Origin: an uncultured Verrucomicrobia subdivision 3 bacterium
Lineage (GTDB): Bacteria; Verrucomicrobiota; Verrucomicrobiia; Limisphaerales; UBA11358
Assembly (NCBI GenBank): GCA_903820285.1
Contig: CAIJGS010000162.1
Coordinates: 1 to 42,934 of the forward strand
Direction: 5' to 3'
Length of the DNA stretch: 42,934 nucleotides
Part shown: one piece after another, positions 22,084 to 24,778 of the stretch
Position numbering within the stretch: the first letter of the stretch is position 1
Layout of the letters: every line of letters starts with the position of its first letter
The notes under the pieces: model-generated
Seen by the model: the letters and a program-made list of their open reading frames with translations, nothing else
Told to the model about the DNA's origin: nothing
Database searches by the model: none
Program-made: the position numbers and the translations under genes

Positions 22084-22461
22084 GTGAAACGGAGTAAACA
22101 AATCCGCCTGGTATTGCTCGGCGGCCTGTCCGCCGGCGTGCTTACTGGTTGCAGCCAGAAACCGGCCATCACCACGGCCGGGGTCTATACGAATAATTTT
22201 TATGTTCCCGGGGTGGGGTACTATCACGCCCCGTTCCGCAATTGGTATGCGCTGCCGTACAATCATTTTGATACCCAGCGGCAGCTATTTTACTACGGCG
22301 GGCAGTGGGGCGCACAGCCCTGCCTGAGCATTACCAACATTTCTTCGCCCACGCCGGATGCGGTGCAAGTGGCGGAAATGACGCGTACGGATATTTCCCG
22401 GGGCGGCTTCGGCAGCAGTTACGGCTATCATTCCTGGGGCGGCTGGGGATTCCATTCCTGA
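22084..22461 (+). CDS. Short lipoprotein with C-terminal SRGGFG motif, YgiB/YjfM-like tail
   Basis: GTG start; signal plus lipobox GVLTGC; 125 aa ending TDISRGGFGSSYGYHSWGGWGFHS; stop overlaps the next ATG. Confidence 0.7.
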   Translation: MKRSKQIRLVLLGGLSAGVLTGCSQKPAITTAGVYTNNFYVPGVGYYHAPFRNWYALPYNHFDTQRQLFYYGGQWGAQPCLSITNISSPTPDAVQVAEMTRTDISRGGFGSSYGYHSWGGWGFHS

Positions 22462-23582
22462 TGAAACGCCACGAGTGTCAACCCCGGCCGGACTGGCGCG
22501 ATAAGGTCGAAAGAGTCGGCCTGACGTATCATTCCCACGAGTCGGGTCCTTATTGGGATGAATCCGCCGCCTATGAACTGACGGCGGCCGAGGTGGATGA
22601 ACTGGAACTCGCCGCGAACACGTTGCACTTCCTCTGCATCGAGGCTACCGAAGCGGTCATCAACAAAAACTGGTGGTCGCGGATCGGCATACCGGAAGTG
22701 GCCGTGCCGTCCATTTTGAAATCGTGGGAGCGCGATGATTTCAGCCTGTACGGCCGGTTTGATCTGGCCTATGACGGCATCACGCCGCCGAAGATGCTGG
22801 AGTATAATGCCGACACGCCGACGGCACTGGTCGAGGCGGCGGTGGTGCAATGGTATTGGTTGCAGGAGTTGCGTCCACAGGCCGACCAGTTCAATTCCCT
22901 TCATGAGCGGCTGATCGAAGCCTGGAAACGCTGGCGCGGCCGGACGATTCATTTCAGCAGCATCAAAGAATTTGCGGAGGATGAAATGACCGTGCTTTAT
23001 CTGCGCGATACCTGCGAGCAGGCCGGGGTGAAGACCAAGTCCGTGTTCATTGATGACATCGGCTGGCACGAGCGGCAGAATCATTTTGTGGACATGGATG
23101 AGGAGCGCATTGAACTGGCGTTCAAGCTCTATCCTTGGGAATGGCTGTGGCGCGAGGAGTTTGGCGCGCATCTGGCGAAGGAGGCGGTGCAGTTCATTGA
23201 ACCGCTCTGGAAATTTCCACTGAACACGAAGGGGCTTTTGCCGATCCTGTGGGAGCTGTTTCCCGGTCATCCCAATCTGCTTCCCGCGTTTGAATCGCCC
23301 GAGTCGCTGGGCCGCAGTTACGTGCGCAAACCCAAGATGAGCCGCGAAGGCTGCAATGTCACGTGGGTGGAGGAGGGCGTGGCACTGGAGGATAACGGCG
23401 GCAATTACGGGGCGGAGGGTTTTATTTACCAGGCCACGGCCGTCGTACCTGAGTTCGACGGCAATCATCCGGTGTTTGGCGTGTGGGTGGTGGATCACGA
23501 GGCCGCGGGCTTGGGCATCCGCGAAGATACCCGTCGTATTACCGGCAATCTCAGCCGGTTTGTACCGCACTATTTCACATGA
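22461..23582 (+). CDS. Glutathionylspermidine synthase-like ATP-grasp ligase (YgiC/YjfC family)
   Basis: 374 aa from the ATG at 22461; MLEYNADTPTALVEAAVVQW, FPGHPNLLPA, YVRKPKMSREGCNV, GVWVVDHEAAGLGIRED. Confidence 0.88.
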   Translation: MKRHECQPRPDWRDKVERVGLTYHSHESGPYWDESAAYELTAAEVDELELAANTLHFLCIEATEAVINKNWWSRIGIPEVAVPSILKSWERDDFSLYGRFDLAYDGITPPKMLEYNADTPTALVEAAVVQWYWLQELRPQADQFNSLHERLIEAWKRWRGRTIHFSSIKEFAEDEMTVLYLRDTCEQAGVKTKSVFIDDIGWHERQNHFVDMDEERIELAFKLYPWEWLWREEFGAHLAKEAVQFIEPLWKFPLNTKGLLPILWELFPGHPNLLPAFESPESLGRSYVRKPKMSREGCNVTWVEEGVALEDNGGNYGAEGFIYQATAVVPEFDGNHPVFGVWVVDHEAAGLGIREDTRRITGNLSRFVPHYFT

Positions 23583-24778
23583 GCTACGAGAATCCCACCC
23601 GCCTGCGCATCGGTCAGCACGGAACGTTTTCCGGCAAGGATTACCGTCTCGTCGGCCGCGCCGTGATGGGCGTGGACGAGGATGGCCAGACGTATTATTG
23701 GAACGAGTTTTATCTGGCGGCCGGCGATGGCACCCGCGCCACCCTGGTGTATGAAGAAACGGAGGGGAGTGTGGAGTGGCGATTGTTCACCGAATTTACC
23801 CCGGAATTTCCCATGAACGCCGCCGATGCCGCCAGCAAACGCCAAGGCGATCATTTGAATCTGACTGGTCGGGACATGGTCATCAGCCGGGTGGATACGG
23901 CTCAGGTTTATCGCATAGAGGGCTCGGTGCCAGATGGGCTGGTGGTGGGCGAGGTTTCAAATTATTTCAATTTGGAATTCGGGAACGCCATGCAGGTGGT
24001 GAGTTGGATCGGCGACCGGATTGAATTTTACGATGGGGTGAATCTTTCCACCCGCCTCGTCAATGGAGCATTCCATTTACCCAATGAGTCGGTCGGCGGG
24101 TCCGGGACTGGTAGTTGGTTTTCCTCCGGCAGTTCCGGCGGGTATGACAGTTGGTTCATGTTTGCCCTGAAAGCGGGTGGTGTGTTCCTGTTGATCTTCC
24201 TGCTCTTTGGCCGGAATTTTTCGTGCGCATCCAGTCGGCCGGCGGGCACGGTCAGACACATTTCCGCGGGGGCGGCACCGTTGACCGTGGGGGCTGCCGG
24301 AACCTTGAAGGGGACACATTATCGCGTTGCGGCGCATGCCGTGGTGGAAATTGGCGAGGTGGGGGTTTTTTATGAACGGCATGAATATCAGCTTACCGCC
24401 GATGGTGGGCAGACCGCCCGGCTCGTTTGCGGAGTGAATTATGGTGATAACAACTGGACGCTGTTCACGCCCTTGCATCCGCTGCAGCCGCCTACGGCCA
24501 TGGAATGCGCGGCGAAAAAAATGGGCGAAGTGGTGAATGTGGATGGGGTGGAGGGACCGGTTTCCCATATTTTTCAGGCCACCGTAAAGCAGTCGGACAA
24601 TCCCGTGGATGTGGATTGGAACGGCTCCAGCCTGCATTATGGATATATGGCCAAGTCGCCCTACGTTACCTTGCTGGCGACCTGGAACAGCGTGGACACC
24701 AGTTTTTTCCAGGGCCAGGATTTGCCGGTCAAAACCGTGACGGCGGCGTTTGCCGGGTCGTCCACGAACGGAAACTGA
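23579..24778 (+). CDS. Membrane protein with two DUF4178-like domains flanking a TM helix
   Basis: ATGA overlap with the ligase gene; two related modules GTFSGKDYRLVGRAVMGV...YYWNEFYL and GTLKGTHYRVAAHAVVEI...FYERHEYQL, hydrophobic WFMFALKAGGVFLLIFLLF between them. Confidence 0.75.
   Translation: MSYENPTRLRIGQHGTFSGKDYRLVGRAVMGVDEDGQTYYWNEFYLAAGDGTRATLVYEETEGSVEWRLFTEFTPEFPMNAADAASKRQGDHLNLTGRDMVISRVDTAQVYRIEGSVPDGLVVGEVSNYFNLEFGNAMQVVSWIGDRIEFYDGVNLSTRLVNGAFHLPNESVGGSGTGSWFSSGSSGGYDSWFMFALKAGGVFLLIFLLFGRNFSCASSRPAGTVRHISAGAAPLTVGAAGTLKGTHYRVAAHAVVEIGEVGVFYERHEYQLTADGGQTARLVCGVNYGDNNWTLFTPLHPLQPPTAMECAAKKMGEVVNVDGVEGPVSHIFQATVKQSDNPVDVDWNGSSLHYGYMAKSPYVTLLATWNSVDTSFFQGQDLPVKTVTAAFAGSSTNGN

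Follow-up and report, generated by a model that had tools for sequence, protein, structure and literature searches.

It is proposed that a small lipoprotein and a YgiC/YjfC-type ATP-grasp ligase, encoded by overlapping genes of an uncultured Verrucomicrobia subdivision 3 bacterium, are substrate and enzyme, with the RGGFG-containing tail of the lipoprotein recognised by the ligase and its C-terminal carboxylate amidated with a polyamine; we regard this reading as probable. Recognition of the tail by the neighbouring ligase is strongly supported by comparison of sequences and gene neighbourhoods, and we infer the amidation of the C-terminus, by analogy with glutathionylspermidine synthetase, as well as which amine is used and a role at the cell envelope. 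The comparisons also suggest that the tail is the natural substrate of YgiC-type ligases; we know of no established physiological peptide for YgiC or YjfC. Already known are the ligase family itself, the peptide-spermidine ligase activity and the link to DUF1190 and DUF350 proteins. The literature that we searched makes no mention of the tail; Iyer 2009 (amidoligases) and Pederick 2023 lay outside that search, so an earlier proposal of YgiB or YjfM as the substrate is possible.

The three-gene locus

The window, a stretch of 42,934 nucleotides (contig CAIJGS010000162.1), contains three genes at 22084-24778 on the plus strand that encode the lipoprotein, a GSP_synth ligase and a protein whose two halves are DUF4178-like. 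The lipoprotein and ligase genes overlap in TGATG (22459-22463) and the ligase and third genes in ATGA (23579-23582); the coordinates and stop/start overlaps that the earlier note had given for all three are correct. A carbonic anhydrase gene (PF00484) lies 138 bp upstream of the locus and a Na/H-exchanger-type transporter gene (PF00999) lies downstream in the opposite direction. A scan for promoters and terminators returned only chance-level signals.

The lipoprotein gene (22084-22461, plus strand) has a GTG start and encodes 125 aa comprising the signal peptide MKRSKQIRLVLLGGLSAGVLTGC with the lipobox LTGC, a GYYHA/PYN/GG.W core and the RGGFG tail. The motif (22399-22413, plus strand; SRGGFG codons 22396-22413) is invariant across the 10-member profile family A3 to which the protein belongs, and it is placed 15 residues before the C-terminus; the protein had been described as stopping at RGGFGSS, whereas it actually runs on as SSYGYHSWGGWGFHS (22414-22458, plus strand), which has a small last residue and is the putative acceptor end. 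The lipoprotein has no match in Pfam or NCBIfam (none to DUF1190, PF06693, at E<=1), in a PDB profile search or in a tblastn search of plasmids, and a single-sequence scan of genome contigs found one near-identical MAG only. A six-frame search of the window genome found 37 RGGFG strings in 5.25 Mb, of which, besides the window's own, only three lie within 40 residues of an ORF end. In none of the other cases does the string sit in the C-terminal tail of a protein that is plausibly anchored; one near-end ORF passes a crude anchor test, yet its sequence resembles a UvrD-type helicase.

The ligase (22461-23582, plus strand) is a protein of 373 aa whose residues 12-372 match positions 1-371 of the GSP_synth profile PF03738 (E=1.9e-145), with no amidase domain. 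Its closest PDB entries are YgiC (7uk8, E=3.8e-93) and YjfC (7uk6), in line with its earlier assignment as a YgiC/YjfC-type synthetase lacking the amidase, and it is a putative peptide-polyamine ligase. Residues R99, D101, E114 and N116 align with R316, D318, E330 and N332 of GspS, which we take to be active-site residues, and are invariant in 18/18 ligases aligned. The sole PF03738 ligase of the window genome is the one that adjoins the tail protein. NCBI names both YgiC and YjfC peptide--spermidine ligase, an activity credited to Pederick 2023 in PMC12568646.

The third gene (23579-24778, plus strand) encodes a putative accessory protein in which a hydrophobic segment separates the two DUF4178-like halves. 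Pfam finds DUF4178 (PF13785) once, at residues 10-156 (41.7 bits against a cut-off of 25), and profile comparison of the halves reveals the second as a divergent, homologous copy of the first (E=4.6e-22), which upholds the dual-DUF4178 description. Neither a PDB profile search with one DUF4178 half nor tblastn of the protein against plasmids gave a match. The gene is confined to the window clade, in whose sister loci it lies 3' of the ligase; it has the same place in L018 and is absent from family f3. In one close relative (L032, the same sequence as L010) it is frameshifted between the halves, by real decay or assembly error. DUF4178 had been thought to take the place of DUF350 here; such an exchange is ruled out by sister loci that carry both genes, DUF350 being directly 5' of the carrier in 8/11 sister loci, most of which also have the DUF4178 gene. 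This makes the window operon a derivative that lacks DUF350; no DUF350 gene was detected anywhere in the window genome, which is incomplete. DUF350 is also present in about 20 phage loci with ligase and carrier. A tblastn search for PspA (YjfJ), YjfI and YjfK found none around the window locus.

Distribution of the tail and the ligase

The pairing was followed in 49 genomes from the genus-level group to which the window genome belongs (the sister set) and in 388 genomes of the phylum. PF03738 occurs in 12/49 sister genomes; the lipoprotein profile A3 matches 11 of these 12 and 0/37 of the ligase-negative genomes, and the twelfth ligase, for which no lipoprotein was found, is cut off at a contig start. 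A YgiC-type ligase is present in 12/388 genomes of the phylum, and profile A4, which represents the carriers of family f3, matches exactly these 12 (window protein E=2e-11) and has no match in three genomes that possess only a remote GSP_synth. In all complete verrucomicrobial loci RGGFG is found near the carrier C-terminus.

The same tail adjoins the ligase in Actinomycetota, Deinococcota, Pseudomonadota, phages and jumbo-phage contigs. In the loci that were read it was found in Nonomuraea (IQRGGFGRSWTGGS), Tsukamurella (IDRGGLG...SSGS), Deinococcus (VSRGGLTSTARGALSSGG), Rhizobium (VARQGFGGRSSFSFGG), Sulfitobacter (ASRGGFGRSGGSRGFGG, with the gene order reversed), Acinetobacter and Pseudomonas, and in phages Motura (...IVRGGFGSTGSSFSAGG), Phosso and 44RR; ligase matches number 167 in plasmid records and 137 in phage records. 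An alignment of 18 ligases, used to scan viral contigs (IMG/VR), picked up 80 loci (L049-L128), many of them on contigs of 200-530 kb. An anchored tailed protein lies within 2 kb of 61/70 distinct viral-contig ligases, all on the same strand and 48 by the strict motif, compared with 0/886 more distant ORFs; the nine misses are mostly contig ends, one broken ORF, or tails just beyond the pattern. This control, together with the number and position of the strings in the window genome, leads us to reject the idea that RGGFG is merely a common string. On large and jumbo-phage contigs (L049-L128; phage records L041-L044) the ligase and the tail lipoprotein form an auxiliary module.

The conservation of the tail in lipoproteins next to homologous ligases, which the earlier note had predicted, is thus seen both in the near-perfect co-occurrence within Verrucomicrobiota and in the same tail in other phyla and phages, a much wider spread than that note had supposed. 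The prediction of a small lipoprotein as its bearer stands in part: the tail is kept, but the lipid anchor is not essential to the pattern, as carriers with a transmembrane anchor only (L017, L019, L027, L033 and L034) indicate. A counterexample is the Azospirillum ligase L039 (29% identity), which has no tail neighbour.

The tails found beside remote ligases are looser (KSGIG, RAGGY, AYGKGS), and the carriers of the remote ligase clade have no evident signal peptide. The remote ligases of Vibrio, Pseudomonas FeN3W, Leptolyngbya and Virgibacillus (L212, L213, L214 and L216) have anchored neighbours with the looser Gly/Ser tails AYGKGS, RAGGYSSGG, SRSGGASS and GIGSSVKPSGRGASS, suggesting that the type of tail varies with that of the ligase. 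At L016 (2552-3337), L028 (662-1450), L029 (582-1469) and L030 (585-1526), no anchored lipoprotein accompanies the remote verrucomicrobial GSP_synth ligases. Downstream of them is a protein of ~260-310 aa in which neither a signal peptide nor a Pfam family is evident; it ends in ...AGGFG-LIPEPSSSGG and AGGFG...SSGG-like sequences, and upstream is a membrane protein, with a weak DUF350 match in L028.

In E. coli the tail is present as TRGGFG in YgiB (...TVTRGGFGESVAK...), as the earlier note had stated, and as SRGGYG in YjfM (...TVSRGGYGRSSS...). The window lipoprotein is otherwise unlike YgiB, again as in that note: besides the missing PF06693 match, hhalign places no more than residues 1-37 on the DUF1190 alignment. 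Profile comparison aligns the window family with DUF1190 in the signal peptide only and family A4 with DUF1190 in the tail only, and it rules out the window carrier as a divergent DUF1190 core. The two verrucomicrobial carrier families have a common GYYHA...PYN...G.W core, and the window core has homologues in other Verrucomicrobiota. Leader and tail are common to the carriers and the middle differs, the cores being largely unrelated by profile; the common leader and tail may reflect very distant descent from one ancestor, the middle having diverged since.

The tail as a candidate substrate

In a set of 88 non-redundant tails the distance from motif to C-terminus has a median of 11 residues and a range of 7-25. 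The last residue is S in 39, G in 36, A in 8, E in 4 and T in 1, and the penultimate residue is G in 72%. Among the 45 representatives used for a permutation test, the last residue is small in 42, where the tails' own composition predicts 34.5 (p=0.0026). Of the 532 residues that follow the motif only 5 are Asp or Glu, and 3 of these are terminal. Since Asp and Glu are nearly absent, the C-terminus is the only dependable tail carboxylate, and we infer that the ligase acts there, like glutathionylspermidine synthetase on the C-terminal glycine of glutathione. Against amidation, the last residue is not always Gly, S being as common and E occurring in 4.

In the proposed mechanism the ligase would recognise a Gly/Ser-rich carrier tail consisting of RGGFG, about 7-25 further residues and a small C-terminal residue, and would phosphorylate the C-terminal carboxylate in the manner of the related glutathionylspermidine synthetase. 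The activated carboxylate would be joined to an amine of spermidine, homospermidine or a similar polyamine in the cytosol before export, and the polycation-capped carrier would be displayed on the cell envelope, with the DUF4178 protein and, in relatives, DUF350 as presumed membrane accessories. Because most carriers have export signals and the ligase is expected to be cytosolic, modification of the tail would have to precede or accompany export; a cytosolic carrier of the remote-clade kind would ease this objection. When a read-through of carrier and ligase from a phage (A9, from L077) was modelled with AlphaFold, the ligase was confident and the tail was disordered, with a pLDDT of about 30-57 and no defined placement, in a construct whose carrier C-terminus is fused and does not mimic the free end; the model thus speaks neither for nor against the proposal. 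Taken beyond the window, the mechanism would define an unrecognised widespread modification, in which encoded RGGFG...G/S/A/E tails on varied envelope and possibly cytosolic proteins are polyamine-capped by dedicated ATP-grasp ligases in bacteria and phages; we see the chances of this wider reading as evenly balanced.

The tail could instead serve for docking only, recruiting the ligase to the membrane, the true substrates being peptides of another kind or small molecules, for instance glutathione-like thiols. The pairing and the conservation of the tail fit docking equally well, YgiC and YjfC are named for activity on peptides, and the hss-gss cluster of phage Motura has been read as a glutathionylhomospermidine route (PMC9992855). 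Docking nevertheless appears unlikely, as it leaves the small last residue, the short motif-to-end distance and the near-absence of Asp/Glu unexplained, and E. coli gss already serves glutathione without a carrier.

It is quite unlikely, in our view, that the carriers are simply a homologous, fast-evolving family of envelope lipoproteins whose leader and tail are kept for uses of their own (sorting, export or surface binding) and which merely have an operon in common with the ligase. Besides the tail, the carriers have in common an N-terminal M(x)[KR]xS signature (54/88 tail carriers against 4/39 control lipoprotein-like ORFs, the carrier sequences being related to one another) and, by profile comparison, a signal-peptide region. 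However, the carrier is missing wherever the ligase is missing in both the 49- and the 388-genome sets, the pair is kept in phages without the other operon members, and remote ligases adjoin a carrier that has no evident signal peptide and ends in ...AGGFG...SSGG. The M(x)[KR]xS start (for example 22084-22110 in the window) may be a second recognition element or may reflect common descent.

A homospermidine synthase gene adjoins carrier and ligase in phage Motura and in contig L049. The window genome has no match to AdoMet decarboxylase (PF02675) and encodes a DS-family (homospermidine/deoxyhypusine synthase) protein (L175; G000:C79:9712-10629), so the amine used there may be homospermidine rather than spermidine. 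The missing decarboxylase could also be taken to favour a different acceptor altogether, for example an amino acid or the amine of a phospholipid or, in the way of ubiquitin-like tagging, of a protein; the Gly-Gly and Gly-Ser ends are like those of tagging tails, and remote clades may differ. We hold such an acceptor to be improbable, because the nearest characterised relatives are known to use polyamines and hss is clustered with the pair in those two phage loci. ATP-grasp enzymes also form side-chain lactams and lactones in graspetides, and the tail resembles a precursor with a conserved recognition element, but a ligase that crosslinks side chains of the tail in this way, or prepares a peptide for later release, is very improbable, because side-chain carboxylates are so few that the tails have nothing like the Asp/Glu-rich core of graspetides, and the ligase belongs to the C-terminal amine-ligating GspS/YgiC family and not to a graspetide family.

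Comparison with known systems

The bifunctional glutathionylspermidine synthetase-amidase (GspSA/Gss) has the same synthetase fold as the window ligase, with the four residues aligned above. The window ligase differs in lacking the amidase domain and in having DTPT after the E.N motif where GspS has DSAS. Gss, unlike the window ligase, is without a tail-protein neighbour, none having been found at the locus of the bifunctional gss of E. coli. The hss-gss clusters of phage Motura and betaproteobacteria were described by Li et al. 2023 (PMC9992855), who read the Motura cluster as leading to glutathionylhomospermidine. The hypothetical protein between hss and gss in Motura is a tail carrier, which was not recognised there. 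If the proposed modification is real, the phage hss-gss clusters would have to be read anew, and there would be a clue to why jumbo phages have the pair.

The article of Ravi et al. 2024 (PMC11237479) describes PspA/CesT-Tir operons with a GspS-like ligase, DUF350, DUF1190 and DUF2491, and another operon type in which DUF4178, DUF350 and a lipoprotein accompany a spermidine-synthase-like gene; term searches of the article returned no mention of the tail. The window resembles the former in the association of ligase, lipoprotein and, in its relatives, DUF350, and DUF4178 occurs in the latter, polyamine-linked type. It differs in having no PspA, DUF2491 or channel and in the loss of DUF350, and its DUF4178 gene has the ligase as partner in place of a SpeE-like synthase. 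The latter operon type supports a common polyamine theme.

The closest parallel is with ygiBC and yjfMC of E. coli, which, like the window locus, have the carrier followed by the ligase, a lipobox in the carrier, [ST]RGG[FY]G near its C-terminus and a ligase of the same family over its whole length. Unlike them, the window has a carrier that is not DUF1190 and that aligns with it in the signal peptide only, no tolC or PspA/YjfI/YjfK neighbours, and a DUF4178 gene after the ligase. The window thus contributes a carrier type unrelated to DUF1190, against which the tail stands out as the common element. The tail is a specific substrate candidate for the two E. coli enzymes as well as for ligases of various phyla and of phages, and it would, if the proposal is true, define a dedicated C-terminal polyamination of proteins.
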